Positions 1-26,415 of a stretch of DNA of 27,992 bases are shown in pieces. Source of the stretch: a virus. Every line of letters starts with the position of its first letter. Position 1 is the stretch's first letter. The notes under the pieces were generated by a model. That model was not told the origin of the DNA and did no database searches. It worked only from the letters and a program-made list of their open reading frames with translations. Position numbers and translations under genes: made by a program. Location: positions 1 through 27,992 of the IMG/VR virus record IMGVR_UViG_3300024256_001036. The stretch is one strand, 5' to 3'.

Positions 1-1934
1 TCGCTCTCTTCTTTGTTTTTATCCGTGATATAATATTCTTTATCTGCGTCTCAAGTACTATCTTCTATTTCCTTTTCCGTTGGTGGCAACGAGGGTTCAG
101 GTACGAATCCATCCGCCCCACCTCCAAACTGTTGCACCATACTTTCATCAATATTTATTTCTTCATTTTCTTCTTCAATCTCCTCTTCTTCTGCATCTTC
201 TATTTCATTTTCAGTAGGAACGCCATCGCCATATTTAGGTGCGTCAAATATTTCTTCTTTGTGCGAATCTGTTTTAAACCCTACATCGCTCGAAAATGGA
301 TAATTGCCGCGAATAGCTTCTTGAATGTCTTCACTTGCGAATATTAATCTATAATCCTGATATTCTTCGCTTTCGCCGTATATATCATCAATATTATTAA
401 TAATTTTATTATTTTTAATATTAATTAATTTTATTATTATATTATTTTGATTGTTATATCATTTTTTTCAAATTTTCTCTGCAACTAAAGTTTGAAATTT
501 GTCAGAAATGATAGGTTTATTTTCAAATTTGATAATGGTTTTATATAATTGTAATGTTAAATTCTTTGTAGAATCTAATTTACCTAAAAATTCTGGTCTT
601 AAATATTTTTTTGAATTATATTCAACATCTAACATTCTTGTTGCTATTAATGGTTTATTGTTTCTAAATATAAAATACATTTTTTGATACATAAATTTTG
701 GAATTAAATACGTATCTTCGTTTATTTGTTTAATAATATTTAATTTAACCGCTTTCTTTAAAGCTTCTATATTTGTTTTTATGCTGTTGTCTTTATGCTT
801 GTTAAATTCTTGAATTAAATATTTAAAAATTCGATCTATGCTTGCTTGCGGAAATTCTTCTTTTATTCGTTCGGGAGTTTCATTTAGGCATGTTGCTGTG
901 CCTTCTTGCAAGAATCCTATACCCACTGTTATAGAATTAATTAAATCTCGCTCGTTTTCCGTTAGATAAAAATTGCTACAAATTGTTTCTGTTTGCAAAT
1001 CTTTTTCTTTATTATTTTTTTGAATTTCTTTCAAGCTATTATTAAAATCTATAAGTAAAAAAATATTTGCTCAATTTCTGCGTTCTTCTTCGCTTTGAAT
1101 TTCACTTTCTTTCTTTCATATATCATTAAAGTCTTTTATGGAAATTATATTTCCAAGATTATTTATTATTTTAATATTATAGCTTTTACTATTTAACCAA
1201 AATTTTCATTTTTTTGCGGCAGATGGATATTGTATTGAATCGGATAAAATTGGGACTTTATAATAAATAGATAGCGTTTTGTAAATAGTAATCATTGCAT
1301 CAGGATAGTTAAATGCATCAAAATTTTCTATACCATGTATTTGGACGTGTGTTCCTAGCTTTTTATATGTAGCTAATCAAATAACCTCATAGTTATTTGA
1401 GACTTTATTTGATACTTTAAAAATCCAATCGTGGTCTTGTATGCGATTAATATAAATATTTTTATCGCTATTTATTAAAAAACCAACGTGCTGTCCGCTA
1501 TTTATTAACTTCTCGATATGCTTTTTACTATTGATTTTATTATATTTACCTGTATCATCAATAATAGGATTTTCATTTAATTGTGATCAATTAACTTTTA
1601 AAGGTTTAAGTCTAGTTGGTATAATTGGTCGTTGAACTTTTTCTTTCAAATGAAGTTCTTTTTCTTCGGCATCTTTTTCAATCTCTTCTATTTCTTCTGT
1701 ATCAACAGCTAAAAACGTTGCATTTTTATCATTAATTTTCTCGCCCGGATAAGGTTTGATATTATAATTTAATGGAAATTCAGAAAGCCCTTTACCGACA
1801 GCTGTCGCTTTACTATCAATTGAAGTGTCATATTTTTCTTCTAATGCCGCTAAATCTACGTTGTCTTGACTATGATAATTTTCTCAATCAGAATCATATT
1901 CTGCTTCAAAATCTTTTTTAAATTTTTCATCCAT
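1..1934 (-). CDS. Acidic phage protein with two copies of an unnamed domain (3' end outside window)
   Basis: Reading starts at ATG 1934 (MDEKFKKDF), behind an AAAAGGAAAAGG ribosome site, and stays open to the window edge, so at least 644 residues. It is open only if UGA is Trp: about nine in-frame TGA (for example 1071-1073, 468-470, 459-461, 51-53) against two TGG. The N-terminal 120 residues are acidic and low-complexity. Two later segments each end in a signature like L-x-L-Y-K-T...PIISD-x-x-Q-x-x-x-A-x-K-x-W-K-x-W; a third copy lies in the protein at 6113-6754. The C-terminal visible part is very acidic with a QQFGGGADGF stretch and Pro-rich turns. I do not recognise a function; a virion or head-associated role is only a guess from the repeat architecture and its place after the replication genes. 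Confidence 0.8.
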
Positions 1935-1983: not shown

Positions 1984-2556
1984 TTACCAATTAGAGAAGG
2001 ATCTTTGCATTTCTCTTGGAATTAAATGCGAATATTTATTTAATACAAAGTACTTCATAGTCTCGTCAAGGATATAAGCTATTTGATCATTTTTACTTTT
2101 TGTTCTAAACTGATCAATAAAAGTATGGACCATTTGTTCTTGGTAAGCTTTTTGATTATTTTCAGCTAAAGCCGCTATTTCAGGGTTTCCTATATTGCCC
2201 CAAGGAATTTTACAAATTATTTTAAATTCACATTCATCTTCTTCTTGAATTATTGGTAAATCTCCTGAAGGCGACATTATAATAGTATTTTCTTCATATC
2301 TATTAAACCTAAATTTTTCTAATATATTTTCATTGTTTCCTGGATCAGTCATATATAGGGTTTTTAGTCTCGGGATTAAGATCTTTGAACACTTTAACCT
2401 GTCACTAATCAGCAAATTATTTGCATAAATTATCCCTTTAGAATCCTTATGCAAATTTATAATTTTTTCTACCATTTCAACTAAAGAAGGTACTGTCATT
2501 TCAATGTTTTTTTTATTTAATGAACCTACATTAATAATTTTTGAATATTGTTTCAT
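1984..2556 (-). CDS. Stand-alone, degenerate DinG/XPD-type helicase C-terminal domain
   Basis: 190 residues, starting at the ATG that overlaps the dnaE stop (TAATG), so probably translationally coupled to dnaE. The layout follows the second RecA domain of DinG/XPD helicases: GIIYANNLLISDRL (motif IV-like), then TIIMSPSGDL where the family has SPS-x-EGVDL, then CEFKIICKIPWGNIGNPE (family: ii-KvPfp-l-dp), then a Y...Q-x-x-x-x-x-x-x-x-D segment ending AYILDE (family: Q-x-x-GR-x-x-Rs-x-x-D...YilD). The GR and second Arg of motif VI are absent (DQFRTKSKND) and motif V lacks its acidic pair. No N-terminal ATPase half is present. I infer a non-catalytic or partner-dependent derivative; homology is by pattern only. 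Both Trp codons are TGG. Confidence 0.6.
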   Translation of the reverse strand: MKQYSKIINVGSLNKKNIEMTVPSLVEMVEKIINLHKDSKGIIYANNLLISDRLKCSKILIPRLKTLYMTDPGNNENILEKFRFNRYEENTIIMSPSGDLPIIQEEDECEFKIICKIPWGNIGNPEIAALAENNQKAYQEQMVHTFIDQFRTKSKNDQIAYILDETMKYFVLNKYSHLIPREMQRSFSNW

Positions 2557-5500
2557 TATTGCTCCTTGATTACTGTTAAAGATTTAAGATTCCAAGAGTC
2601 TCCGGCTCCCCATTTATTCTTTTGGGCCAAAAATACAATAGTATTATACTTTTGAAGGCTTGCAAATACTGTATGGCCTATTTTTTTAATGTCTTTTTCC
2701 CACACAAAGACGTCTAAAGCACCTTGCATAATAGAATCAATTTGCATAAAGAAAAACTTCTTACCTGTTTTTGTTGTTTTTTCCATAATTTTAGTTATCA
2801 ATCCTGCGTCATAATCTTTTCCGTTTCTAATTTTTGGATTTAATCTAATCTGCATTAATTTTATACGGAGCTTTTCAGCTGGGTTGGGACTAAAAGCCGA
2901 GCCCAATGCGTCAATTTCTGAAGCATAAAAGAAACTATCGATAATATTATTATCATCTACGTCTTTAATAATAGCTTCATCTAATTCCATAGGCCTATAT
3001 TTAGCCCTTTTTCCTTCCTTTTGCTCTTTTACAACTCGATAATTTGTCTTTTCTTTCATAATTAAAATTTTAGCCCTAGCTTCTTGCCTTGTCAACCCAA
3101 AGCTATCAAACATACCTATATTAGCCATTGTTAATAAAGCTCTTTTATTAATCGCAGAAAGTTTATTTTCTGCTAAATAATCAATAAAAGTATCAAACTT
3201 TTTAAACTTCACGTCGAACAATGTATTTAATGCTATTGCAGCTTTTTCACCAATTCCTTTTACTTGAGATAATCCAATATAAATAATTCCGCAGCTAGGA
3301 TCTTGCTCATCCATTTTAAACATACAATTTTCGTATAGATTGGAAAGCTGCGGCGGCACTATCTTAATCTTTAATCCTCTTTCTTTAATCTGCTTAATAA
3401 TATTTCCTAGTTTATCAAAACTTTCGTTTAATACAGAGGTATACCAATAACCAGGAAAATATGTGCTCATAAACATTGTTTGAAATGCCAAAATAGAATA
3501 TGAAAAACTATGACTTAAATTAAAACTATAATCTGAAAAGCTCTCCATCATATTCCACAATGAAATTAGGCTGTCTTCGTTTAAATTCTTTTCGACGCCT
3601 TTTTCAATAAACTGATTATAGAACTCTTTTTGAAGCTTATTAAATTTTCGTTTATTTTTTTTCTTCATAATTTGGCCGGTTTTGAGGAACTTTCGAAAGC
3701 CGTTTAATTGACCTGGGTCAAAATCCCCAATGTCTCTGCCGATTTTCATCACAGTTTCTTCATATACGAAAATGCCATAACTTTTATCCATATGCGGACC
3801 GATAATATCCCAAATATTTTTATCGAACTCTTTCCCAATATCATTAGGATTAAATTTATTTTTAATAACTTTTTCGTGAAGTCCGAAACCTAACGGGCCA
3901 GGCCTGTATAATGCGTTACAAATAGATAATTCGAATAAACTTTCTACCTTAAGATCTTTTAAAATCTTTGTCATACCAGATGAATTAAACTGAAAGATCC
4001 CCTCTGTATAACCTTGGCGAAAATTTTCAAATACGTGTTGGTCATTGAAATTGATGTTCGACGGATGAATCTTATTATAAAATTCATTTTTATCATTATC
4101 AAAATCTTCTGCCGCTCTATCAATAACTTCATGCAGCTGCCTTAAATTTGCCAATCCTAAGAAATCAAATTTAATTTTACCAATTGATTCTAATTCGGTT
4201 AAGCTGCCACTTTCAGAATAAGCTGATGCAAAATCTGCAATATCATTTCCTATTAATGGAATGAACGGAACAATTTCATCATTTTTGTCTAATAATAAAA
4301 CACCGCCAGCATGAACAGAAAGAAAATTTAAATTACCATTTAATTTTAATAAAATAGTTTTTAAATCCAAATCTTTTTCATCACCGACGTTGATTTGCCA
4401 ATCATCAATTATTTGTTTAAAATATTTATCCTCTAAAATGTCATGGATCGTTACACTCAAAAGATTATAATTAGCATCGATGTGTTTAGAGATTGTTTCG
4501 GCCGAGTTTAAGGAACTTTTACCTACGTTAGGGTATTCTATATCTAAAACCCGCCAAACCGTCTTAATCAAGCTCTTTGTATGCAGCATGCCTTTGTTTG
4601 AGATAAGCACGGCATCATGATTTGGAAATAGCTCTTTAATAATATTAATCGTTGTTTTGCGATCCATTACATCTACATCGATATCTGGCGCATCCAAGCG
4701 GGTCTCATCGAGAAACCTGGAAGAAAGAAAGCCTGTTTTAATCGGGTCTGCCGTTGTAATTTCTAATAAATAATTTGTTAAGAAGCTACCGCCTGAGCCT
4801 CGACCAGGGCCGTGATATACATTCTTTTCTCTCATGGTTTGTAATACACGTTGGACAACAAGAAAGTACGCCGCAAAATTTTTATTTTTAATAATTTCAA
4901 GTTCGTTTTTTAATCTATCTGCATATTTTTTTGGATTATCAAACGTATGATAAAACTTTTTAAAACCTTTTAAGCATTCTTGTTTTAATTGTTCATCAAT
5001 ATCTTCATCAAAATATTGCTTCATTGTATTTAGTTCTTGCTTTGCTTTTAATGAAAATTTTGTAATACTATGTGCAATATCAATTGTTGTTTTGCATGCA
5101 TTTTCAAATATATCTTCGGGAATAATTTCATTATGCCCGTTTTCATAATAAGTTTCTAATAAAGTCTTATTTGTTTTAAAATAAATATCAACTTGTTCTT
5201 CAGAACTATTTCTTTTACTATTAATAATATTAAATTGTTTTAGCGCAACCTTCCAATTTGCGGCCATTGTGATATCTCTTAAATAAGAGTCTTCTTTATC
5301 AATATAATGACTATCGCTTGTAACTACGGCCTTTTGGTCTTTATACTGATTCATAAACTTTACTTGTAATTCATTCATAAGCCTTTGTTTTGGATGATTT
5401 AGCGTTTGAAACTCAAAATAATAGTCTTGCCCGAACGTTTTTCTTAGCCAGTCTACTCTTAATTTTGTTTCTTTTAAATTATTATCAAATAATGCTGGGG

Positions 5501-5978
5501 CAAAAGCGTATGAACCTAAACACGCATTTAATGCAATTAAATTTTTAGGATTAACTTCTTCAATAATATCAGGAGTTATTAAAACATACCAACGTTTAAT
5601 TCTACTAACAAATACTTGCTTACGCTTAATTGCTATATTATTAATTCTAACAAGTTCTTTATAACCTTTTTTATTCTTTGCTAATAAAACTAAATGATAC
5701 CTAGAAGGTTGTTTAATATCTTTATTTTGCCATTTTTTTAATTCTTTTTCTGTTGTCATATAAATCTCGTTACCAACAATACTATTCACATCATTTTCTT
5801 TGCAAGTTTCAAGAAAATTGACGGTTGAGCCCATGTAGCCATGCTCCGTCATACTTAGATATGGCTCCATACTTTCTTTTTTAATAGTATTAATATAATC
5901 TTGGTAGTCAACGTGTGAATCGAGCAGTGAAAATTGACTGTGGCTATGCAAGTTTACATAATTTATTTTTTCTATCAT
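2556..5978 (-). CDS. dnaE: DNA polymerase III alpha subunit (DnaE-type, family C)
   Basis: 1140 residues, close to the about 1160 of bacterial DnaE; ATG at 5978 behind AAAGGAGC. Domains in order: N-terminal PHP domain (NLHSHSQFSLLDS at 9-21, TEHGYM, GNEIYM, TSDSHYID); polymerase palm with GPGRGSGGS (about 388-396) and the catalytic pair PDIDVDV (about 430); HAGGVLLLD near 556; third acidic site KFDFLGL near 605; NALYRPGPLGFG and YGIFVYEE of the thumb/fingers; a C-terminal helix-hairpin-helix part and an OB-like end (RNGKDYDAGLITKI). This is the likely replicative polymerase. The PHP metal residues look mostly kept, with Asp to Glu in TEHG. All 12 Trp are TGG, none TGA, unlike nearly all neighbours. 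A terminator lies just upstream, so it probably has its own promoter. Confidence 0.97.
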   Translation of the reverse strand: MIEKINYVNLHSHSQFSLLDSHVDYQDYINTIKKESMEPYLSMTEHGYMGSTVNFLETCKENDVNSIVGNEIYMTTEKELKKWQNKDIKQPSRYHLVLLAKNKKGYKELVRINNIAIKRKQVFVSRIKRWYVLITPDIIEEVNPKNLIALNACLGSYAFAPALFDNNLKETKLRVDWLRKTFGQDYYFEFQTLNHPKQRLMNELQVKFMNQYKDQKAVVTSDSHYIDKEDSYLRDITMAANWKVALKQFNIINSKRNSSEEQVDIYFKTNKTLLETYYENGHNEIIPEDIFENACKTTIDIAHSITKFSLKAKQELNTMKQYFDEDIDEQLKQECLKGFKKFYHTFDNPKKYADRLKNELEIIKNKNFAAYFLVVQRVLQTMREKNVYHGPGRGSGGSFLTNYLLEITTADPIKTGFLSSRFLDETRLDAPDIDVDVMDRKTTINIIKELFPNHDAVLISNKGMLHTKSLIKTVWRVLDIEYPNVGKSSLNSAETISKHIDANYNLLSVTIHDILEDKYFKQIIDDWQINVGDEKDLDLKTILLKLNGNLNFLSVHAGGVLLLDKNDEIVPFIPLIGNDIADFASAYSESGSLTELESIGKIKFDFLGLANLRQLHEVIDRAAEDFDNDKNEFYNKIHPSNINFNDQHVFENFRQGYTEGIFQFNSSGMTKILKDLKVESLFELSICNALYRPGPLGFGLHEKVIKNKFNPNDIGKEFDKNIWDIIGPHMDKSYGIFVYEETVMKIGRDIGDFDPGQLNGFRKFLKTGQIMKKKNKRKFNKLQKEFYNQFIEKGVEKNLNEDSLISLWNMMESFSDYSFNLSHSFSYSILAFQTMFMSTYFPGYWYTSVLNESFDKLGNIIKQIKERGLKIKIVPPQLSNLYENCMFKMDEQDPSCGIIYIGLSQVKGIGEKAAIALNTLFDVKFKKFDTFIDYLAENKLSAINKRALLTMANIGMFDSFGLTRQEARAKILIMKEKTNYRVVKEQKEGKRAKYRPMELDEAIIKDVDDNNIIDSFFYASEIDALGSAFSPNPAEKLRIKLMQIRLNPKIRNGKDYDAGLITKIMEKTTKTGKKFFFMQIDSIMQGALDVFVWEKDIKKIGHTVFASLQKYNTIVFLAQKNKWGAGDSWNLKSLTVIKEQ

Positions 5979-6009: not shown

Positions 6010-6032
6010 AATATAAGAAATTTAATTGTAAA
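6010..6032 (-). promoter_or_regulatory. Weak candidate promoter for dnaE
   Basis: Between the terminator and dnaE the minus strand has TATATT (6010-6015), five of six to a sigma-70 -10 box, with TTTACA (6027-6032) upstream but at too short a spacing to be its -35. A promoter is expected here because of the terminator; the exact element is uncertain. Confidence 0.25.
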
Positions 6033-6056
6033 TAAAAAGGCCTAATTAAAGGCCTT
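6030..6056 (-). terminator. Rho-independent terminator upstream of dnaE
   Basis: A perfect 7-bp stem, AAGGCCT (6037-6043) with AGGCCTT (6050-6056) around a 6-base A/T loop, is followed on the minus strand by TTTATTT. It lies 57 bases past the stop at 6113 and ends the long upstream gene array, separating dnaE and its partner from it. It could also act on the plus strand, where TTTTAT follows a few bases later. Confidence 0.75.
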
Positions 6057-6754: not shown

Positions 6755-7089
6755 TATAATTTTCCTGTCTGCTTAAATAATTGATATTCTTTAATCGCGC
6801 TTTCTGCAATTTGATCATATAAGTTTTCTTGTCATTGATCTATATCAGGATTATTAGTAATATAGGATGTTAAATTATTAAAAACAAAAAGAAATGCCGG
6901 GGTCGGTAGATTAACCTTATCCATAAATACGCCCGGCGTTTCTTTTTTCATTTCATCTGTCAAAATTCCACCATTCAAAAAGAAATATTTTAATGCAAAA
7001 AAGTATAAAACATTTGAAAAATGATTTGAAAAATGTAACATGAAATTTGTATATAATTCGTTTTTATTATTTATAAAATCTTTAAACAT
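6754..7089 (-). CDS. Hypothetical protein, 111 aa
   Basis: I take ATG 7089 (MFKDFINNKNELY), which overlaps the preceding stop by 8 bases (ATGTTTAA); a TTG nine bases upstream is less likely. One in-frame TGA (6832-6834) gives D-Q-W-Q-E-N-L-Y-D-Q and carries the frame to TAA 6754-6756, which overlaps the next ATG. Aromatic-rich helices at residues 15-45 (FMLHFSNHFSNVLYFFALKYFFL) could be amphipathic rather than membrane-spanning. No family recognised. Confidence 0.75.
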
Positions 7090-7456
7090 TTTTCTCAATT
7101 ATTTTTAATACTTCTGGCCCAACAATACTCCAATCCACAAAAGGTCTCGTCTCTTGGGAATGGATCAATGGAGTTCCAAAAGCTGCATCATCGACATAAA
7201 GCTGTGCAAATACTTTGGGGCTTGTTGTCCATTCGCTTTGTCTTGGATTAGTATTAATGCCATAAAACTTAATTCCATTTTCTTCGCAATAATCTACTGC
7301 TTCTTGTAAAGCTTCTCCGCTTCTCATTGTGAATAAAATTAAGCTCGCGCCTGCTTCCTGCCAAGACTTAAGCCATTTAAAAGCACCAATATCTTCTCCT
7401 ACAAATGGATACTTATGCTGTACAATCGTGCCATCAAAATCTACACAAATTTTCAT
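7082..7456 (-). CDS. HAD-superfamily hydrolase / phosphatase
   Basis: 124 residues, ATG behind AAAGGAATAAT. Motif I is VDFDGTIV (nucleophile Asp6 and Asp8), motif II is ILFTMRS (Thr near 43), Lys in SPKVFAQ is motif III and LYVDDAAFG is motif IV (Asp pair near 89-90). It is a compact cap-less HAD protein, resembling small phage and Bacteroides hydrolases of the BT0820 type, which act on phosphorylated sugars or nucleotides; the substrate cannot be told. All four Trp (FKWLKSW, SEW, VDW) are TGG, unlike the flanking genes, which use TGA. It overlaps the next gene by 8 bases. Confidence 0.88.
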   Translation of the reverse strand: MKICVDFDGTIVQHKYPFVGEDIGAFKWLKSWQEAGASLILFTMRSGEALQEAVDYCEENGIKFYGINTNPRQSEWTTSPKVFAQLYVDDAAFGTPLIHSQETRPFVDWSIVGPEVLKIIEKNV

Positions 7457-8291: not shown

Positions 8292-9665
8292 TTAATTAAA
8301 AAGTTCGTCAATTTTTGACACATGATCTTCCTTTTGTTTTCCATTAATTTTTGCGTTTTTTTGGTATGTTCCTGATAAAATATCTTTTGTTGAATTAATA
8401 TCCATTGTATTAACTTTTATTTCAACAATAGATGTGTCCATATATACTGGATATAATAATCCATCACGTCCCGCTCGATTCTTTGCAATAAACATTGTTC
8501 CTTGATTTTCCAATCGTTGATCAATGCGTCTTGCCAGTGTAACAATAACATCTGAAATCATAACTTTATTAAAACTTTCGGCAATATCTTCTATTCCAAT
8601 ATAATCATTAGAAACACTGCTTCTATTACTCTGGCTGGCCGTTCAAATTGGAATCTGTAATTCGCCAGCTCATCCACGCAGATCCTCGTAAACTTCTTCT
8701 AATTGTAATCGCTTTTCTCAATTATTATTGCCAGAAGGCCTTAATAGATCGGCATAATCAATAATTATCATATCCGCTTTGAAACCGGTTGCTTTTAATT
8801 TATTTACATAAGCTTTTAATTTAAGAATACTTGCAGATTTTGTTGGATATTCTTGAATTTTTAAGCTTCCCATGCCTTCTCTCATAGACATTAACTTTTC
8901 TTTAACATCGCTTCTAAAAAAAGGAATTTTATCGATGGGATATTTTGTAAACCAAGAATCATAGCGAGTACCGACCGATCTTTTTCCAAGTTCTAAAGTA
9001 ATATGAACAATGTTTTTACCAGCCTTTACTGCGGCCGCGCCTAAATGGACTAAAACCATGCTTTTACCAGCACCCGGCCCACCAATAATTACCCCTAACT
9101 CGTTACCAGCCAATCCGCCTTGCATTTCTTCGTCAATAGTTGGTCAGCCAGTAGAAACAACATTGTATCGTACATTTTCCGCTCTATCATCAAATTCGGA
9201 TCAATAATCGTGATCTTCGACATCTGTATTTACTTTTTTAACAACATCCATCATTTCATTTTCAATACTATCAAATTGCTCAGATTTTAAATGTCCGGCC
9301 ATTTTAATTAAAGATTCTTTAATTTTTTGATGCTTGCAAAAAGTAAAAGCGGTATCTTTTACAAAATCTGCATCTGCATTATTCGAGGCTTCTATTGAAT
9401 TTATAGTTTTGTATAAAAGATTTTGTATATCGACGTCTTTTACTAACTTAACGTAGGTGCTTAAATTATCATATGTTGGTAATTTTTCATATTTTGTAAA
9501 ATGCATGAGAAGCAATTTATAAACAGATCTGAACATCTTATCTACAAAAAATTCTTCTTTTAAGATTTCAAAAATAGAAAGGAAAAAATGCGTGTCTTCA
9601 ATTAATAATGAAATTAATTTTGTTTGAAAATCTTTTCCATATTCTGATAATGAAACAACTGTCAT
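8292..9665 (-). CDS. dnaB: Replicative DNA helicase, DnaB/T4 gp41 family
   Basis: 457 residues (T4 gp41 is 475), ATG directly after the stop of the 5' nuclease gene (TAA-ATG). An N-terminal helical domain (1-150) is followed by the RecA-like motor: STGWPTIDEEMQGGL, Walker A GGPGAGKS (about 195-202), catalytic Glu in HITLELG, Walker B MIIIDYADLL (about 298-305), TASQSNR (H4, Gln near 345) and the arginine-finger region KNRAGRDG near 395. Five Trp are TGA and one TGG; under the standard code the gene falls into three fragments (8292-8561, 8718-9125, 9201-9665). It would unwind the fork ahead of the DnaE polymerase and load on gp32-type SSB-coated DNA. No primase is visible in the window. Confidence 0.93.
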
Positions 9666-14222: not shown

Positions 14223-14474
14223 TTACTTATTTTTTTTAGGACGACCAGATTTTTTCTTAGGAGTTTTTGCAACTTCTTCAATAACTGGTTCGGCAATTTC
14301 TTCAACAACCGACTCAATAACTGGTTCGGCAATTTCTTCAACAACCGACTCAATAACTGGTTCGGCAACCGGCTCGATCTCTTCGCTAATTTCTGCTAAA
14401 AAATCTGTAAGTTTCACGGGCTGAGGAGCATTAACCGTTTTATTTCGTGTAAGTTTAATTCTTCTTCTTGGCAT
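14223..14474 (-). CDS. Small repeat protein with AT-hook-like tail
   Basis: 83 residues, ATG 14474 behind AAAGGAAACG. The N-terminus is basic (MPRRRIKLTRNK). The middle (residues 28-67) is an acidic repeat of EPVIESVVEEIA, encoded by two exact 36-bp DNA repeats plus a partial one. The C-terminus KTPKKKSGRPKKNK has the GRP core of an AT-hook, which would bind the minor groove of A+T-rich DNA. Basic ends with an acidic spacer suggest a nucleoid-type or linker protein; this is inference. Copy number of the repeat may vary between related genomes. Confidence 0.72.
   Translation of the reverse strand: MPRRRIKLTRNKTVNAPQPVKLTDFLAEISEEIEPVAEPVIESVVEEIAEPVIESVVEEIAEPVIEEVAKTPKKKSGRPKKNK
14280..14368. 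repeat. 36-bp tandem repeat, two full copies plus 17 bases
   Basis: Exact copies at 14280-14315 and 14316-14351, then 17 matching bases from 14352. The unit is a multiple of three and encodes a 12-residue acidic repeat, so copy-number change keeps the frame. Confidence 0.9.
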
Positions 14475-16957: not shown

Positions 16958-17929
16958 CTAATATTTCTTCAATTCCTCGTTAATCATTTCGTCAATAAGA
17001 TCTTCAAAAGTATATTTATGCTTCCATCCTAGTAAATTTCTGGCTTTAGAGCAATCGCCTTTCAAATGTTCTAATTCTTCTGGCCTTAAATATTTTTGGT
17101 CTAATTCGACATATTTAGATCAATCTAAGTCTAAAGCCTTAAAAGTATATTCAACCAAATCTTTGACGGTATGAGATATTCCGGTCGAACAAACAAAATC
17201 ATCTGGTTTATTTTGTTGCAACATTAATCACATACATTCAACATAATCCTTTGCATGACCTCAATCTCGCGAAGCATTTAAGTTACCTAATTTAAGTTTA
17301 GTTTGGAGTCCTTTTTTAATCCTTATCGCCTCTTTAACAACTTTTGCTGTAACAAAATTTGATCCGCGTCTTGGGGATTCATGATTAAAAAGTATACCAT
17401 TACTAACAAACATCTTGTAAGATTGCCTATAGTTTCGTGTAATATTATAAGAAAATACTTTCGCGCATCCATATGGCGAAACTGGACTCATTGACGTAGT
17501 TTCTCTTTGAAACCCGTCGTCATCAATATTATTGCCGAACATTTCTGAACTTGATGCTTGGTATACTTTTGCATCTGGACAAATTAATCTAACTGCTTCT
17601 AATAAAACTAGCGTACCTACACCAGTCGTTTGGGTTGTATATAGCGGCTGATCAAACGAAATTCTAACATGACTTTGAGCTGCTAAATTATAAATTTCAT
17701 CTGGTTTAACATCTTGCAACACTCGAACTAACGATGCCATATCCGTCATATCTGCGTATATTAAATTATCTTTTATTTGCTCGTAAATTGTATTTAGCCT
17801 AGATGTTTGATTTTCTGATACAGAATTTCTTTTAATTGTTCCATAAACTTTATAACCTTTGTCTAAAAGAAATTCTGCTAAATATGATCCATCTTGGCCA
17901 TTTATGCCTGTAATTAATGCTATTTTCAT
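16958..17929 (-). CDS. gmd: GDP-mannose 4,6-dehydratase
   Basis: 323 residues (usual 345-370). Converts GDP-D-mannose to GDP-4-keto-6-deoxy-D-mannose with NADP. Start ATG 17929 follows the stop of the previous gene directly (TAA-ATG) with GAGGAAA inside it; stop TAG 16958-16960. Seen: Rossmann TGINGQDGSYLAEFL, SSSEMFG (catalytic Ser/Glu near 127-129), YGCAK (Tyr153, Lys157), NHESPRRG-x-x-FVTAK, and NASRD-W-GHAKDYVECM-W. Trp223 in the invariant RDWGHAKDY motif is TGA, as are two more; one Trp is TGG. The gene starts a pathway shared by GDP-fucose and GDP-colitose and sits with both types of downstream enzyme. Confidence 0.95.
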
Positions 17930-18820
17930 TTATTTCCTCGCTATTTTATAGTTATTGTTAAATCATTCTATCGTTTCTTTTAGACCATCTTCGATTGATG
18001 TAAATTTGAAGTTAGGTAAATATGACATTAATTTTTTATTACTAGATGGCTTTCTATATTGTCCATCTGACTTCGTTTTATCAAATATAATATTACCATC
18101 GAATTTCATATATTTAGCAATTAATAAAGCAATGTCTTTTATACTAATTTCTTCTGATGTTGAAAAAATTATAGGTTCTTCTTCGTTATAGTTTTCTAAC
18201 GCTCACATTGTTAATATAGCAATATCTTTTGTAAAAATAAATTCTCGTAAAGGTTTTCCGCTGCCTCAAATTATAAAATCTGTGTTATTCTTTTTTGCTA
18301 AATAACATTTATGGATTAAAGAAGGAATAACATGGCCGTTTTCTAAATTAAAATTATCGTTTGGACCATATATATTTGTTGGTATAACGTTCACGATATT
18401 CATTCCATATTGTTCTCTATAAGCTCTTGCTTGTACATCTAACATTCTTTTTGCATAAGCATACGGATAATTTGAAGTATGAGGTTCGCCGGTGTGAATT
18501 TGATCTTCTGTTAACGGATAAATAGGATTATCGGGAAAAACGCAAGTTGACAAGAATGAAACAACTTTTTTAACTCCGGTTTGACGCGCGGCTTCAATAA
18601 CATTTGTGTTTATCATAATATTATCAAAAAAGAATTCGCCCTTATAATTCATATTTCCACCTAAACCACCAACTCTGCCGGCTGTATGAATTATTTCAGT
18701 GGGTTGTATCTCTTTAAATAATACCAAAGTCTGTTGAAATTCACGAAGGTCTATGTCTTGCGTAGAAATTCTTTTTCCACTTAAGGCTGTTGCAACTAAA
18801 CCATTTCCAGTTATTAGCAT
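17930..18820 (-). CDS. fcl: GDP-L-fucose synthase-like epimerase/reductase (Fcl or ColC)
   Basis: 296 residues. NAD(P) site TGNGLVATAL, then VGGLGGNMNY, FLSTCVFPD (Ser91, Cys93), the Y-x-x-x-K pair Tyr120/Lys124 in YAYAKRM, NIYGPNDNF, and W-GSGKPLREFIF. These are the hallmarks of GDP-4-keto-6-deoxymannose 3,5-epimerase/4-reductase (GDP-fucose synthase). ColC of the colitose pathway is a close relative that acts on the 3-deoxy intermediate and needs only C5 epimerisation, so the neighbour ColD-like gene makes ColC an equal candidate. All three Trp are TGA (II-W-GSG, TM-W-ALE, IE-W-FNN), so the standard code stops it at 18266. Start ATG 18820 behind GGGAGAA; downstream it abuts gmd. Confidence 0.9.
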
Positions 18821-18821
18821 T

Positions 18822-19982
18822 TTATTCTCCCTTACTATTATTAATAATATTACATATAAACTTTACTTCTTCTGTCGTTATTTCATGATTGTTTGGCAAA
18901 TATATACCAAGTTTATCTACTATATCTGCGTATTGGAATTCCTGAGCTCCATATAAATTTGATCAGAATGGTTGTTTACCAATGTTGCCGGCAATTAACG
19001 GACGAGTTTCTATATTATTTTTCTTTAAATTATTAATTATATTTTTTATATTACGTGAAATAACCGGGTATGCAAAATTAGAAATAAATATATTTTCATC
19101 TTCTGAAATTTTGCACATATTATGATCTATATATTTTTTATATAAATTATAATTTTTATTCCTAATTTTTGATATTTCATCTATTTTTTTTATTTGTTCT
19201 ATACCAATATATGCTTGTAGATCTGTGGCTCGAAGATTGAAGCCGGGATAAACAAAAGTATATTGCTTTTTAAAATCATCAATATTATAATTTTCTAGCC
19301 AATCATTTTGAGTTTGTTCATTTACATCTCTAACCCAGCCATGACTTCGTATTGATTGTAAAATATTATACAATTCTTTATTATTTGTACAAACCATGCC
19401 GCCTTCGATAGTTGAAATATGATGTCCAAAATAAAACGAGAAAGAGCTCATTAGACCAAACGATCCAGTTTTTTTCCCATAATATTCAGATCCTACGCTT
19501 TCACATGAATCTTCTAAGATAATAACTTTATATTTTTCGCATAAGGCTTTTATTTCGTTCATTTTATTTGGTATGCCTAAAACATGAACTAACATAATTG
19601 CAGCTGGGGATTCTTTTATAAAAAGAGTTTCTAAGTCTTCTATATCTAATCCCAATGTTTCTTTATCGCATTCGCATAGAATTGGCTTTAATCCTAATTG
19701 AATTATTGGAGAAACCGTTGTTACTCATGAAATACTTGGGACAATAATTTTATTATTTTTCATTTTCTTAGATAGTAAAAGAGAATATATTATAGCTAAA
19801 TTGGCTGAGGATCCAGAATTTACAAAAACCGAATATTTTACTCCTAATCATTTCGATCATTCATCTTCGAACTGTTTTGTTAATTCGCCCTTCGTGAGGC
19901 GCGGATACGTTTTTATTCAATCGCTTAGTAAGTCTAATTCAACTTTACTAATAGTATCTCTAACTAATGGGATTTTATTCAT
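18822..19982 (-). CDS. colD: ColD-like PLP dehydratase (GDP-4-keto-6-deoxymannose 3-dehydratase)
   Basis: 386 residues, matching E. coli ColD (388). DegT/DnrJ/EryC1 fold: FVNSGSSANLA (PLP phosphate), IIVPSIS-W-VTT, LEDSCESVG (Asp to the pyridine N), then SFYFGHHISTIEGGM. Where aminotransferases have the Schiff-base Lys, this protein has His; the two His are residues 187 and 188, and ColD's catalytic base is His188 as I recall. SHGWVRD, YPGFNLRATDLQAYIGIEQIKKI and ETRPLIAGNI also align with ColD. It should remove the 3-hydroxyl to give a 3,6-dideoxy-4-keto sugar, not transfer an amino group. RfbH (CDP-sugar, iron-sulfur) also has His but is longer. Five Trp TGA, two TGG. ATG 19982 behind AGAGG. 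Confidence 0.85.
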
Positions 19983-20776
19983 TTTGCCTCTTTTTCTTCT
20001 TTTAATAATTTTAATTCTTCAATTGTGTCAGTTAATAATAAATTATACATACATTCTTTATGTTCTAAATAAAAAATATTATTTTGTTCATTTAAATTAT
20101 TTGGCATCTCTTTTACGAAATCTTCATAATTTAGATCAAAAGCTTTATATAAAGATCTAATAAAATCGTTGACGAAAGTGAGTCTTGCTGAACCAATAAT
20201 AGCATTTTGCTGTAGTGAAATAGATTGATTCACAATAAATTTTGGGTGTATTAAGTCCCTATAAAAATACGTGTTTCCTAATTCAATTTTTTTTAAATTA
20301 ATAATTGAGTCAAAAACTTTTGCAAACAAAAAGCCATTTTTTCTATAGATTGAATTAAAATTACTTAAATAATGTATAATTATATTTGAATATTGAGCTT
20401 TGTGTGTTAAAAGATAATCTGTTATATGCCTTTTTGATATAACATAATTTGACATAGTATGTTTAAATGGAGTATTAATGTTTATTGGTCCATTTTTTTT
20501 ATTTCATAACTCTATTGTTGAATAAAATATTATTTGTCTACTTCTTTCTTTGAAGAAATTTATAAATTTTAATGTATAATCATAATTTACTTTCATAAAA
20601 TCATTTAATGTTAGACTTCTATTAAAAGTTCTTTGCTCAGCAAAACAAATATAAACTCTATCAAAATTTCTAAGCTTAAAATTCTCAAAATCTATATTTC
20701 TTGCTGATATTTTTTCATATGTATTATCGAAATAATAAGCTAGCTGAGATGTATTTCCAATAATTAAGTTTTTCAT
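19964..20776 (-). CDS. Short-chain dehydrogenase/epimerase-like protein
   Basis: 270 residues. Under the standard code it splits in two; TGA 20504-20506 gives STIEL-W-NKKN, and TGA 19979-19981 (a stop in the standard code) extends the end by W-I-K-S-H to TAG 19964-19966, overlapping colD by 19 bases. A Rossmann start (MKNLIIGNTSQLAYYF, glycine pattern degenerate), IIFYSTIEL (Ser/Thr site) and YVISK (Y-x-x-x-K) place it in the extended SDR group of sugar-nucleotide enzymes. Probably it modifies a nucleotide sugar of this pathway; substrate unknown. Start ATG follows the upstream TAA directly, with no ribosome site, so it is likely coupled. Confidence 0.7.
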
Positions 20777-21112
20777 TTATTTATATAATTTGACAGAATC
20801 TTCAATTAATGACTTGCCACTAATAATCGCAGCTTCAAGCATTTTATTTATCGCTTCAATATATTTTGGCCTTTTTTGTTTAAAACATATATCAATTTTC
20901 CTTTTAAGAGCTGCGACCTCGGAATCCGAATTGGATGTGGAAATTGCATCTTCTAAATATCACATTCTACAATGCAGAATACATAATTTTTCAATAACCT
21001 CACCAATGTTATCGGTTTCAATTAAATTATTTGGTAATTCTACGCTTTTATCGCGACTTAATATTTTTTTTGTGGTTTCTTTAATAATTTTTTCTATATT
21101 TATTGCTATCAT
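20777..21112 (-). CDS. DUF4254-like protein
   Basis: 111 residues, hidden by one TGA. ATG 21112 behind AAAGGAAAG. The segment LHCRM-W-YLEDAISTSNSDSEVAALKRKIDICFKQKRPKYIEAINKML matches my memory of DUF4254 (N-x-x-x-W-h-x-E-D...KR-x-ID-x-x-N-x-x-R-x-x-x-I-x-x-I-D), where the invariant Trp is here TGA. The family is all-helical, of unknown function, and is often encoded next to heptosyltransferase-type glycosyltransferases, as it is here. Confidence 0.6.
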
Positions 21113-21133
21113 TATTACTTTCCTTTATTTTTA

Positions 21134-21985
21134 TTATAAAATATTTTTTCTTATTAAACTAATAATATTATTTTCAATGAAGTTATTAGACCAAATCTGG
21201 GTTGCAAGTGAATCTTCAAATCATATTCCTTCGTGCTTTCTATTTGTAAAGCTTATATATTTTTTATTTTTAGATAATAAGTTCTCTTTTATATGAGTAA
21301 AGCAATATGGGCCGCTAGCGCGACCAATAATTATATCGCAAAAAGTAGATAAATAACTTATTTTTAATAATTCGTTTTCCGAATCATTTATAATTGAAGA
21401 TGTATGCATAATATTTTCATTTAAATTTGAATTATTTGTTATAATAAATAAATAATTAAATTTATCAAAATCTTTATTTAATTGAAGAATTATTGGGTCA
21501 AAGTTAAAATTAATAGACTGGCCTGATTGCACTGCGCCATTACATATCAAAATTATTTTTTTATATTTCCGCTTTAGTCGTGTCATTTCTTGTTTAATAT
21601 TTTCAACAGTCAATTGTTGAAAATATATTACTGGCAACAAATCATTGTTTATAATATTTGTTGTATCAATATTTAATTTATTAAATATTTGCATTGCTAT
21701 TTTTTTATGATTTTCGAAAGTACATCCGCGCCAATCAAGGAAGCTATAAAAATTTTTCCCGATTCAAGTATTGATAATGTTGTCATTTCAATAGTCTAAT
21801 TCTTTGCTTCATAAAACAGATTTGCCGGCGTAATTACATGCTTCTAAATCATTCAATAAATTTTGTTTATTGTTATGATGATATTCGATCTTGAATTGTT
21901 CTTTTTCTAAAATATTTAAAATCATTCTAGAATAAAAAACATCTCCGTTATGAAAATTATTAAATAATTTTATTGATTTGTTCAT
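21134..21985 (-). CDS. Putative GT-B glycosyltransferase (GT9-like)
   Basis: 283 residues, ATG 21985 without a clear ribosome site, stop TAA 21134-21136; four TGA and two TGG Trp. N-terminal MNKSIKLFNNFHNGDVFYSRMILNIL resembles the heptosyltransferase start (G-D-x-x-x-x-R/x). The second half, KKIILICNGAVQSGQS, FNYLFIITNNSN and the ending LKISYLSTFCDIIIGRASGPYCF, follows the GT-B pattern of a nucleotide-binding C-terminal domain with a final 'd-IIG-x-x-SGP' site, as in ADP-heptose type enzymes. The DUF4254-like neighbour supports this. The exact sugar and family are uncertain. Confidence 0.6.
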
Positions 21986-22020
21986 TAATTGGGTTCCGTT
22001 TTTTTATAAATTCTTCTAAT

Positions 22021-22839
22021 TTACTTAGTATTTATTTCTCAATTAATCTGTTTTATATTTTTCACCATTCAATCTTCACCATTCATATATTGAAGTGCTG
22101 TTTTTAAATTTCTTTCGATATAAGGTATCATATTAAAGTAGACATCTTTATTTATTTTATTTAAAATTAAATCTAATTCTGTAAAATTTTTAAAATCTAA
22201 GATTCCGTTTTTATCAAAAAAATCTCCAATATTTTTACAGCCTCAATAGATAGGTATCGTACCTGTTGCAAAACAATCTAATATTTTTTCTGTAAAATAA
22301 TTTTTTACAGAAGAATTTTCTACAACTATCTGAAACATGTAATCTATACATACATCTTCTTTTTTGTCAAAGTTGTTTATACCTTTACCAAAAGCTTCGA
22401 TATAATTATATTTTTTTATTATTTGATGTCTTAGTTTATGACCGAATGTTCATTTTTTATATGATACAACAATATTTACTAATTTATTTTTTTCATATAT
22501 TTTATGATTTTTTTCTTTAATTCATGTTCTTCCATACGGACAGAAAACAGAATTACTAACGTTTTTAAGTAAATAGTCATCAAATGTAAAAATATAATCA
22601 AATTCTTTAGATAAAGTTTCTATTGTTTGATATATGTTTGGTTTAATCGCTCGAGGTTCATTTAATAATGCTATTTTAATTTTACTATCGCATATAGAGA
22701 CTTCTGTTATAGAATCATCAACAAAAAAGGTGATTCCATCTCATTTTTTCTTTTTTAATACAGGAATCGTATACTTTGATCTATTGGCTAGATCGTCTGG
22801 TGGTATATAATTTTGATCAAATATATTAATTAATTGCAT
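22021..22839 (-). CDS. Glycosyltransferase family 10 (fucosyltransferase-like)
   Basis: 272 residues, entirely hidden by the standard code: six Trp, all TGA. ATG 22839 (MQLINIFDQN) lies within the end of the GT2 gene (14-base overlap); stop TAA 22021-22023. The GT10 donor-site motif is clear: YMFQIVVENSSVKNYFTEKILDCFATGTIPIY-W-GC, matching the family's F-x-x-x-x-EN-x-x-x-x-Y-x-TEK-x-x-d-x-x-x-x-G-x-x-P-i-Y-x-G, followed by F-x-x-x-N-G-I-L-D-F. These enzymes use GDP-fucose, and family members can use related 6-deoxy GDP sugars. With gmd, fcl-like and colD-like genes beside it, the donor is likely GDP-fucose or GDP-colitose. Confidence 0.85.
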
Positions 22840-23542
22840 ATTTTTCTCATATTTTTTCAATTTCTAAATTTAATATGTTAGCGGAGGAATCACTCGTACT
22901 TACGCCGTTAGGATTATGATAATAAAGACATAATGGTTCTTTAATCATATATAACTTTGAAATATTGTGTATTGCTATTCACATATCTCAATCTGCACTT
23001 ATTGGGAAATTTTCTCCATCAAAATATCCGCAAATATTATGTAATTCTTTACGCCACATTGGGTCTGGTCCACACTGACTTTTTTTAAACCAATTTATGT
23101 CTTCGGGCGGCAAGCGGCGGCTCATCCCAATCATTCCTTGTGGATTATAAATGGTATCATTTTCGATAGTTGTAACATTTAATCAATTATATACTAAACC
23201 TATATCAGACTTTTTTTTAAGAATGATATATTTTTTTTCGTTTGCTTTTGGATATCTACGATCATCAATATTTCAATTTGTAACAATCTTAGTTGTTGAT
23301 TTTTTTATGCCTTCGTTCCAAGCATTATAAACGCCTTTGCCGGTTTCTTGATAAAAAAATATGTTATCTAGATGAGTATATTTATCAAATATTTTATGTC
23401 ATTTTGTATATATAATTATATGTTCCGTTCATCTAAACATTGTTTGTTTTTGGATATTTTGAAATCATCCTTCGATGGAATTTAAATATTTTTCTAGCGA
23501 ACCAATAGATCCTATGACCGATAAGTGGTAGTTTTTATTCAT
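22826..23542 (-). CDS. Glycosyltransferase family 2
   Basis: 238 residues, hidden by the standard code (eight TGA, three TGG Trp). ATG 23542 behind TGGAGAAAAG, overlapping the GT7 stop; TAA 22826-22828. GT-A fold with YHLSVIGS at the start, KGVYNA-W-NEGIKKSTTKIVTN-W-NIDDRR (the G-x-x-x-A-x-N-x-G helix and the D-x-D-like metal site), GLVYN-W, then FPISAD-W-DM-W-IAIHNISKLYMIKEPLCLYYHNPNGVS, typical of GT2 enzymes with the E/D-D-W-D acceptor-base region. Donor and acceptor cannot be told. It lies between the GT7 and GT10 genes in one overlapping array. Confidence 0.88.
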
Positions 23543-24317
23543 AACTTTTCTCCACTTCAATAGTAATTTTTGTAAATAATTTAAAGATTTTAGTTTCTAT
23601 TAAACTATACTGATCTTTCAGTTCATTGTAACCGTTATCATTCGTATTGGTTATCTTGGTTGTCTCCAACTCTTGTTGATTTTTAAATATCATATCGTTA
23701 GTTGATTTATCAAATTTTTGGTGAGGTATTGATCTAACAAACCCTGCACCTTGTCTGTCTCATGATAACCCACTCTTTTTAACTCTTTCTAGCAAATCAT
23801 CATCTTCAAACCCTCAACCTCAAAACTGATTGCTGAAGCCGTTTATTTGTTTAAAGTTCTCGATGGACATTTTTACTATTCCACCGAAACCATTTTCTAA
23901 ATGCACCTTTTTGTCTATGCGTATTTTAGCATCTTTGATGTATTTCATAACATCGTCGTTGTCATTTTTTAAATAATTTACTAAAATATTGCTATTATCA
24001 TGCGACTCTATGTAATGGCTTATCAAATGTTTAGGTGTTTCGCTAAAAGAATAGTCTACAACATTGTCGCTTAAGGTTGTAGGAAGGAGATCAACATCAT
24101 GTAATACTACATAATCAAAAGAATCATCTAATAACTTCACACCGACGTTAAATAATAAACCTTTATTAAATGGTTTATCTTCTATTTGTTCTATAACAAA
24201 TATTTTAAAATTAATATTTTGATTATTTAAATATTTAGTTATATAGGGAGCAAACTTAATTAAATGCTTTGCTCTATTTCTATATGGAACTATTATTGCC
24301 AACTTATGCTTTATCAT
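23535..24317 (-). CDS. Glycosyltransferase family 7 (galactosyltransferase-like)
   Basis: 260 residues. ATG 24317 (MIKHKLAIIVPYRNR); an in-frame TTG two codons upstream is less likely. The beta-1,4-galactosyltransferase pattern is clear: IVPYRNRAKHL, FKIFVIEQ...PFNKGLLFNVG, VVLHDVDLLP (D-x-D), HLENGFGGIVKMS, and NGFSNQF-W-G-W-G-FEDDDLLER. In that invariant motif both Trp (166 and 168) are TGA, and standard translation would end at 23820 before it. A third Trp (LS-W-DRQ) is also TGA. About 75 residues with a helical tail follow. Animal and bacterial members transfer Gal, GalNAc or GlcNAc from UDP-sugars; the specific donor is unknown. Confidence 0.92.
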
Positions 24318-24337
24318 AAACAACTCACTTAATCTTA

Positions 24338-24358
24338 TTTAACTTATCTTAAGTTAAA
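24338..24358. repeat. 9-bp inverted repeat over the GT4 stop codon
   Basis: TTTAACTTA (24338-24346) and TAAGTTAAA (24350-24358) flank TCT. It covers the end of the GT4 gene. No U-run follows on the minus strand, so it is not a classic terminator for that gene; as a 3' mRNA stem it could matter, or be chance in A+T-rich DNA. Confidence 0.5.
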
Positions 24359-25448
24359 TATTTTTATTGTAAAAACTTAATAATTCTTTTGAGAAATTTG
24401 ATTTTGTATATTCGTTTTCAAAACCTTTATTATAATCAAATTCATTATTCATTGCTTTTTCAATAGCATTTACCCAATAATAAGGGTTGCTTAAATCACC
24501 TTCAATAGGAATATAAGCGTCTGAGTTTAATAAATATTCCTCTGATCCTAAACCTGCATTACCAACGACTTGGCATCCGCACATTAACGCTTCTAGCGCC
24601 GGTAATCCGAATCCTTCACCATCTGTCATATTTAAAAAGATTTTACTTTCTTTTAAAATATCAGCGACTTCTTCTGGAGTCTTATTTGCAATTACAGCAA
24701 CTTCCCATCCATTTAACTTACCCATAGCTTGGGCGAGCGAAATAGCTTGATAGTATTTAATATCCACTCCTTTTCGGGGCATGAAAGCAATTCTATTTTT
24801 CTTTTCTTTCGGCTTAGAAACGGTTTTAATATCTAAATCGCCGTCTTCCGTCTCAATAACTTCTTCTATTTCTTCTATTCCAAAATCAGTATTGAACAAA
24901 GTTGTTTCTACATAATTAGGAATCTTAAAAATATTTTTTCTATCAAAAGGATTTGTTGTGTTTAAATCTTCAATAAATTGAGTTACCTTATCGCTTACTG
25001 TCATGATCTTATCGATTTCTAATGCATTAAATGGCACGACCTGCTTAAAGGAATTAAGCATTGACGGAATTATATAAGACCAACCTTGTGCAAATAAAAC
25101 TTTCTTTGAAGTAACTTCAAATTGTTTAAACAGCTGGAAGAAATTCATGAAGCCTTCGGGAATAACGATAACATCGTCGCTTGCAAAATTATGAATTTTT
25201 TCTACGGGCCTTCCTTCTTCGAACTTAAACATATTATCTAGATAATAAAAATTTAAATATTTAATGTCTTTGCCGAACTTCTTATTAATCTTTCCGAATT
25301 CTTTTTGAAGATGTACAATATATGCATTATGACCATTTTTATTTAATTCAATAACGTGATCATAAATAACATTAATTCCTCCCGATGCCTCTTTCATATC
25401 CGGGCAAAGATAATAGATCTTATTTAATGGTTTAAAAGCTTTATTCAT
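24354..25448 (-). CDS. Glycosyltransferase family 4 (GT-B, retaining)
   Basis: 364 residues. I choose ATG 25448 (MNKAFKPLNKIYYLCP) behind GAGGAAAAAT; an in-frame start nine codons upstream would overlap the previous gene. N-terminal acceptor domain with EASGGINVIYDHV (the G-G-x-x glycine loop), a C-terminal donor domain with IAFMPRKG, VADILKESKIFLNMT and DGEGFGLPALEALMCGCQVVGN, where the E-x7-E of retaining GT4 enzymes is replaced by an EGFGLP-x-x-E arrangement typical of the group. The acidic insert IEEIEEVIETEDGDLD near 200 is unusual. Its three Trp are all TGG, unlike the GT genes beside it, which suggests a different history or constraint. Confidence 0.9.
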   Translation of the reverse strand: MNKAFKPLNKIYYLCPDMKEASGGINVIYDHVIELNKNGHNAYIVHLQKEFGKINKKFGKDIKYLNFYYLDNMFKFEEGRPVEKIHNFASDDVIVIPEGFMNFFQLFKQFEVTSKKVLFAQGWSYIIPSMLNSFKQVVPFNALEIDKIMTVSDKVTQFIEDLNTTNPFDRKNIFKIPNYVETTLFNTDFGIEEIEEVIETEDGDLDIKTVSKPKEKKNRIAFMPRKGVDIKYYQAISLAQAMGKLNGWEVAVIANKTPEEVADILKESKIFLNMTDGEGFGLPALEALMCGCQVVGNAGLGSEEYLLNSDAYIPIEGDLSNPYYWVNAIEKAMNNEFDYNKGFENEYTKSNFSKELLSFYNKNI

Positions 25449-25449
25449 A

Positions 25450-26301
25450 TTATTTTTCCTCTTTATTATCAACAATTTCGTCTTCTGTAAATGTAACTGA
25501 TCCGTCTGTATTCTCGGAAGCTAATGCTAATGCATCAACAATGTCTTCTTCTTTCTTGCCAGCCTTCTTCATTGCTTCTATGTCTAGCCATTGCACAACT
25601 GAAATTTCGCTTGGATTGTAACCTTCTTTCTTCATCGCCTTCGCAATGGGAATAATTTCGTCCGTGACCAGCTTTCCGATATGAAACATAGCAATATTTT
25701 GACCATCTTCGCCCTGTTGTCTTAATACGGCCTTATTAAAGTCCATGGCTCCAATAATACTATGGGTTAAGAATAATTCATCAGGAATGATTTGATCGAT
25801 ATGTTTAGGGAAGTCGTCTAACCTATAAAATACTGTGCTGTTCTTTTCGTCATCAGCTTTCTTAATATCTTTAATTTCTAATTTTGATAGTAATCAGCCG
25901 CAACGTTTCTTGTTATTTTTATATTCATTCCAATGGGCTTGGATATGATTTGGTAATCAGAAGATTGGTGCTATGGATTTAAACGTACTTAGTTCGCCAT
26001 ATTCTCCATTAGCACAATTATCTGTGTAATTACGTACTTTATTAAAGCTATTATCATCTGAGAAGAAATATTTTAATTCGACTTGATCATTTCAAACATC
26101 AAATCTAGATTTAATACTTTCTGTATCTTCATACATATCCCGCATCTCTTCGCAAATTTGTGGCGTCGTGATTGTAACAACTTCAATTGATAAAGTTTTA
26201 TCAATTTTTTGAGAAGCTATATTTCCAATTTGTTCTAAATATTGGTTTATATCTGTGAAATGATCGCAACCCACAAATACTGTGACAGTGTTTTTTAACA
26301 T
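25450..26301 (-). CDS. Unknown 283-aa protein upstream of the GT4 gene
   Basis: The standard code splits it; three TGA (26092-26094 in FDV-W-NDQ, IF-W-LPN, CG-W-LLS) join the parts, with two TGG. ATG 26301 behind AAGGAAAAAT; TAA ends one base before the GT4 start. The N-terminus NTVTVFVGCDHFTDINQYLEQIGNIA and SIEVVTITTPQ look like the first strands of a nucleotide-sugar or Rossmann fold. The middle holds FSDDNSFNKVRNYTDN and STFKSIAPIF-W-LPNHIQAH; the C-terminal 110 residues are charged and end in an acidic tail (TFTEDEIVDNKEEK). I do not recognise a family. A glycosyltransferase partner role is only suggested by position. Confidence 0.75.
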
Positions 26302-26333
26302 ATTTTTCCTTATTCTTATGTAACATTAAATAA

Positions 26334-26406
26334 TAGCGGTGGTCAGATTCGAACTGACGATTCTTAGATTATGAGTCTAAACGGATAACCACTTCCACAC
26401 ACCGCA
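26334..26406 (-). tRNA. tRNA with CAU anticodon (Met or lysidine-type Ile)
   Basis: A 73-base cloverleaf folds on the minus strand: acceptor 7 positions, D-stem of 4 with an 8-base loop holding A14, G18, G19 and A21, anticodon stem TTAGA/TCTAA with loop CTCATAA (anticodon CAU, U33 and A37 present), 5-base variable loop, T-stem GTCAG/CTGAC with loop TTCGAAT, discriminator A, no encoded CCA. Position 1-72 is a U-U mismatch. That resembles initiator tRNA, but the three G-C pairs of an initiator anticodon stem are missing. It lies between two genes, 10 bases past the stop at 26416. Confidence 0.9.
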
Positions 26407-26415
26407 ATAAATTTC

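Follow-up and report, generated by a model that had tools for sequence, protein, structure and literature searches.

A DNA polymerase gene kept free of UGA codons in a tailed-phage clade that reads UGA as tryptophan

The DNA analysed here (the window) is the viral record IMGVR_UViG_3300024256_001036 of IMG/VR, 27,992 bases long, and its genes lie nearly all on the minus strand. It comes from the genome of an uncultured tailed phage, of which it is only a fragment, and belongs to a clade that writes most of its tryptophans as TGA. Within it, the gene for a C-family DNA polymerase (dnaE) and the gene coupled to it form an island in which tryptophan is written as TGG only. The island and its borders comprise the following features:

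2556..5978, minus strand: dnaE, C-family DNA polymerase of 1140 amino acids; 0 TGA and 12 TGG codons; match to phrog_405 (E=1e-199)
1984..2556, minus strand: dnaE partner of 190 amino acids; 0 TGA and 2 TGG codons; match to positions 397-574 of the 579 of phrog_2488
6037..6056, minus strand: terminator-like hairpin of 7 pairs followed by a T-rich tail; lies ahead of dnaE in the sense of its strand and separates it from the upstream gene
3..1934, minus strand: gene directly downstream of the island; 9 TGA and 2 TGG codons; contrast gene

The dnaE product carries the Pfam domains PHP, DNA_pol3_alpha, DNA_pol3_finger, and HHH_6, and the PHP, palm/NTPase, finger, and HHH regions follow one another in the order of a C-family (DnaE) polymerase. 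Its partner overlaps it in a TAATG junction and corresponds to the C-terminal (RecA2) half of an XPD/DinG-like helicase; within the covered part of phrog_2488, the two RecA-like halves with Walker A and a DEAH-type box were not both found. The partner also apparently lacks the motif VI arginines. Two phages carry full-length relatives of it close to dnaE, and the partner may itself be what is left of a helicase, retained as a polymerase-associated protein. An earlier note on this DNA had given the island a terminator boundary at 6030-6056. The hairpin was recovered there, at 6037-6056, but no terminator-like site was seen at the island's other end, where gene 3-1934 starts 49 nucleotides downstream, so that the island is bounded by genes and not, as far as visible, by transcripts.

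Most genes of the window are open only when TGA is read through, as in a code 4-like genome. Besides gene 3-1934, three replication and recombination genes served as contrast genes:

8292..9665, minus strand: DnaB-like replicative helicase (phrog_19); 5 TGA and 1 TGG codons
9666..10601, minus strand: 5'-3' exonuclease (Pfam 5_3_exonuc_N); 3 TGA and 0 TGG codons
10856..12076, minus strand: RecA/UvsX-like recombinase (phrog_97); 4 TGA and 2 TGG codons

When RecA, the exonuclease, and DnaB were aligned with their homologues from two standard-code phages, the TGA columns most often faced tryptophan, and TGA and TGG columns showed an equal substitution profile. In the GDP-mannose dehydratase of the window, translated in code 4, the tryptophan residues of the solved enzymes are retained. 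Judged by these alignments, TGA encodes tryptophan in the window.

Recounting confirmed that TGA is absent from the 12 tryptophan codons of dnaE and the two of its partner. For the remaining 30 genes of the window, the 81 TGA codons counted earlier were found again, but there were 29 TGG codons instead of 21, which lowers the TGA share from about 80% to 74%. A run of 12 TGG codons had been called extremely unlikely by chance, and it is: the hypergeometric p for dnaE alone is 9.6e-7, and none of 200,000 label shufflings reached the observed result. Three other tryptophan-containing genes of the window are free of TGA, 7082-7456 (0 TGA/4 TGG), 24354-25475 (0/3), and 26904-27992 (0/1); dnaE is the extreme TGA-free case in the window, not the sole one.

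In the window, dnaE had been singled out post hoc by the earlier reader; for four relatives the hypothesis was fixed in advance, and they put it to the test. They were found by alignment-based scans, with a broad DnaE alignment and then with narrower ones, and a final scan built on all five lineages gave no further relative. Close relatives sought with one protein at a time gave only contigs of near-identical strains, which are uninformative on conservation; two contigs are 99.98% identical to the window, nearly the same strain, and likewise carry no such information. One contig that seemed partly recoded (L188) was discarded as GC-rich DNA with spurious long antisense frames. The four relatives (L015, L016, L095, and L262) also read TGA as tryptophan. 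L016 is a 48-kb contig, also named G003 and read in the pieces L174-L176. Their dnaE genes lie in the same replication-gene neighbourhood and are 48-50% identical to that of the window; among the five lineages identity ranges from 47 to 60%, except for one pair (L095/L016) at 85%.

None of these dnaE genes holds the many TGA codons that the earlier note had proposed to look for. The TGA/TGG counts were 0/12 in the window, 1/12 in L015, 0/8 in G003, 0/7 in L095 (a partial gene), and 1/12 in L262, or 2 TGA among 53 tryptophan codons, while the rest of each relative's contig had 59-73% TGA. The corresponding hypergeometric p values were 9.6e-7, 3.7e-4, 4.4e-4, 4.3e-4, and 4.9e-3. Combined, they give about 5e-14, a somewhat optimistic figure, since L095 and L016, the pair at 85%, are not fully independent. 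The single TGA in L015 falls at codon 1120 out of 1135; termination there would remove about 15 residues and do the protein little harm. The statement that the rule does not cover all replication genes was correct and holds in the relatives too.

Two explanations of the pattern, chance and a G-richer gene, have in their favor that the G+C content at third codon positions of dnaE lies slightly above the window average (0.26). RecA, with a value similar to that of dnaE, has 4 TGA against 2 TGG. Among two-choice codons ending in A or G, the G-ending share in dnaE is 17-31%, near that of other genes, and base composition therefore fails to explain 92-100% TGG. Together with the shuffles and the repetition of the pattern in four more lineages, the aligned codons refute an origin by chance or composition, to which we assign a next to negligible probability. 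Where tryptophan codons could be aligned between lineages, they differed in 3 of 60 pairs for dnaE, compared with 18 of 44 for RecA, 9 of 33 for the exonuclease, and 16 of 41 for DnaB. At conserved lysine, glutamate, and glutamine residues of dnaE, the codon differed in 36% of pairwise comparisons, showing that the silent sites of this gene have turned over. Tryptophan residues confined to one or two lineages are likewise written almost exclusively as TGG.

A recent arrival of dnaE and its partner from a standard-code genome, with TGA not yet gained, had been offered by the earlier note as the second of two explanations. It would account for zero TGA amid TGA-rich neighbours, and phages elsewhere exchange replicative polymerases (PMC7886860, PMC12386605). 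However, the diverged dnaE homologues of the recoded relatives, in the same neighbourhood, are nearly TGA-free too; the two closest pairs of lineages are the same for dnaE, RecA, the exonuclease, and DnaB; codon usage is the ordinary A/G-ending usage of the neighbours; and the best database matches outside the clade are only about 24-29% identical. In its "recent" form, acquisition is refuted by the equally UGA-free homologues and is very improbable, dnaE being a native gene. Because tryptophan codons stay TGG while silent sites turn over, dnaE is UGA-free by selection. Within this clade, the codon comparisons show the absence of UGA as gene-specific, conserved, and under purifying selection.

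The state is shared by other genes, and the division into a UGA-free and a UGA-rich class exceeds what chance would give. For the XPD-like helicase, three genomes together give 0 TGA and 17 TGG codons, its full-length homologues in two relatives (with the domains DEAD_2 and Helicase_C_2) having 0/8 and 0/7. A dCMP deaminase has 0/2 in L016, the gene at the corresponding place in L095 also has 0/2, and a nucleoside triphosphate pyrophosphohydrolase in L015 has 0/4. In G003, a block at 40150-47360 that holds genes for an RNA ligase, a phosphoesterase, and a T4 endonuclease V-like glycosylase has 3 TGA and 41 TGG codons (Fisher p against the rest, 5e-20). The dnaE, helicase, and dCMP deaminase genes of this contig total 0/17 (p = 2e-11), and everything outside the block and these three genes has 142/35. 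TGA is abundant in structural-like genes and in homing endonucleases. In T4-like phages, RNA ligases, repair glycosylases, and nucleotide enzymes are functions of the early type. The identity of the genes (polymerase, nucleotide enzymes, RNA ligase, repair glycosylase) suggests that the UGA-free class consists of early-type genes. In addition, an unrelated TGA-containing phage contig (L169, IMGVR_UViG_3300021399_000587) has a DnaE gene with 0/20 and an endolysin-like gene with 16/3; its replication genes are TGG-only, making it a second system for the same split. In G003, the DnaB-like helicase gene (L174 8466-11383) is split by a homing-endonuclease-like insert that itself has 8 TGA and 1 TGG.

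The principal alternative is that the host natively reads UGA as tryptophan and that the UGA-free genes avoid this codon for accuracy or efficiency, with no timed switch; slow decoding, residual termination, or a harmful truncated polymerase might be the cause. DnaE is long and essential, and a truncated product could be costly; moreover, no phage-borne decoder was seen on the fragments. Length, however, is not what excludes UGA, as two long genes of G003 are TGA-rich, one of 1336 residues (31/4) and one of 1204 residues with a weak phage-cement match (11/0). The small dCMP deaminase, the endonuclease V-like protein, and the RNA ligase are UGA-free, whereas the essential RecA, DnaB, and exonuclease are not, and efficiency alone predicts no early/late functional split. 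We regard this alternative as unlikely.

The reason why dnaE, the XPD-like helicase, and the other early-type enzymes are selected to be UGA-free is probably, in our judgment, that they are needed before UGA decoding is effective. Complete copies of these proteins would be produced at a stage when UGA still acts as a stop in the cell or is poorly decoded. Decoding would become effective later, through a factor encoded outside these contigs, and RecA, DnaB, the 5'-3' exonuclease, and the structural-like genes would be made in quantity only after that switch. The change of code would then act as a translational timer with its first boundary inside the replication machinery. The first of the two explanations in the earlier note was of this kind: translation of dnaE ahead of any UGA decoding, or in a host that stops at UGA. 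The near absence of UGA in five lineages, the opposite pattern of RecA, the exonuclease, and DnaB, and the like behavior of other early-type genes support this view, of which we infer the timing and the decoder. The split into UGA-free and UGA-bearing genes, together with published precedent, fits a model in which UGA decoding is switched on during infection, and a need for the proteins while UGA still means stop is the most likely explanation of the UGA-free state.

Four observations weigh against this explanation. First, the TGA in the dnaE of L262 is internal, at codon 144, a true exception, and the rule is not absolute. Second, the nearly UGA-free block of G003 includes a short reading frame with several TGA codons, implying that the pattern follows individual genes, not regions. 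Third, scans for a shared early promoter found nothing conserved across the clade, and sigma-70-type promoter scans were barely above shuffles. Fourth, no tRNA-Trp(UCA), tryptophanyl-tRNA synthetase, or release factor 1 was found in 111 kb from five lineages, all of them fragments; neither ARAGORN nor Rfam gave a tRNA with a UCA anticodon, and a very low ARAGORN threshold yielded only noise. Across the five lineages, a clear tRNA-Met (CAT) at 26333-26407 of the window was the sole tRNA recovered. A scan of genome contigs for a carrier genome found none, giving only two distant matches.

The promoter scans also brought up TTTTTTCA-N15-CTATTT, present in two exact copies at L176 10343 and 15508 (G003 42343 and 47508), one directly upstream of TGA-free genes and the other just past the TGA-free block. 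The upstream copy is a candidate early promoter. As a clade-wide early motif the element was rejected, being absent from the other lineages.

Taken by itself, the pattern fits a need ahead of the switch as well as a need in a different host, and the UGA-free genes might have to work in several hosts, some of which terminate at UGA, the others being needed only where it is decoded. Phages that avoid in-frame TGA and are seemingly compatible with both codes have been described (PMC10746230). Yet growth in a host that stops at UGA would be impossible without the TGA-rich structural-like genes, and there would be little benefit unless this host state were the first stage of the same infection. We consider such a multi-host requirement quite improbable.

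If proteins of the first class are indeed needed before effective decoding, UGA decoding might serve as a translational clock within replication, with the polymerase and XPD-like helicase made first and the recombinase, replicative helicase, and 5'-3' exonuclease after the switch. Shared transcripts would be possible, as the gene 49 nucleotides past the island carries 9 TGA codons, and full replication or recombination would be delayed by codon and not by promoter. We put this forward tentatively, as a possibility that we would not yet favor.

Elsewhere in the window lie several further features:

7082..7456, minus strand: small HAD-like hydrolase; 0 TGA and 4 TGG codons; DFDGT motif in the translation, without a Pfam match

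The HAD-like gene is possibly a further member of the UGA-free class. A large sugar-nucleotide and glycosyltransferase cluster, mostly TGA-containing, spans 16958-25475 and includes the GDP-mannose dehydratase, epimerase-like and aminotransferase-like proteins, and several glycosyltransferases. A small acidic protein with tandem (EEIAEPVIESVV) repeats, whose DNA repeat units are near-identical, is encoded at 14223-14474. At 26904-27992, cut by the window end, lies the C-terminal part of a family A DNA polymerase-like protein, carried beside DnaE on one phage.

A broader survey of stop-codon-recoded phages by Borges et al. (2022) reportedly describes an early/late recoding model. Among crAss-like phages, reassignment is confined mostly to late genes, a suppressor is sometimes not detectable, and in one phage even the polymerase carries TGA (PMC7886860). 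Stop-codon recoding limited to late genes is also known from their Zeta group (PMC12386605), and peptide data exist for late recoded structural proteins (PMC9523058). The present clade resembles these phages in reading TGA as tryptophan in a subset of genes, in keeping early-type genes compatible with the standard code, in having structural-like and lysis-type genes in which the recoded codon abounds, and possibly in a decoder that is not always detectable on the genome. It is unrelated to them and differs in its C-family DnaE replisome with UvsX/RecA-like and DnaB-like proteins.

Standard-code counterparts exist for parts of this replisome. DnaE-like polymerases of phrog_405, for example, from Bacillus and Streptomyces phages, belong to the same family as the window dnaE over almost the full length but are only about 25-28% identical, and the aligned genes read without interruption in the standard code. 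Microcystis phage Mel-JY01 (PP395634) and contig L177 (IMGVR_UViG_3300012920_006394) share the order RecA, 5'-3' exonuclease, DnaB with the window, their DnaB proteins being 33-37% identical to its own; unlike the window, they give no clear sign of TGA recoding, and no relative of the window dnaE was detectable in Mel-JY01. In L177, whose DnaB is 33% identical, the genes contain almost no in-frame TGA when extended to the next TAA or TAG; it possibly represents a pre-recoding state with TGA stops depleted.

Compared with the crAss-like phages, recoding here reaches RecA, the exonuclease, and DnaB, while the polymerase stays UGA-free. We infer a refinement of the published model, in which the early/late boundary would run inside the replication machinery, with replication proteins on both sides and these three on the recoded one; the order of the switch and the start of replication becomes testable. 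The early/late idea needs evidence of a kind that gene counts from single genomes cannot supply. What this clade adds to the crAss-like phages and the systems of Borges et al. is a codon comparison across lineages that shows selection on the UGA-free state: at the level of single codons, one particular gene is seen to be actively kept clear of a reassigned stop codon, although its lineages have diverged widely.

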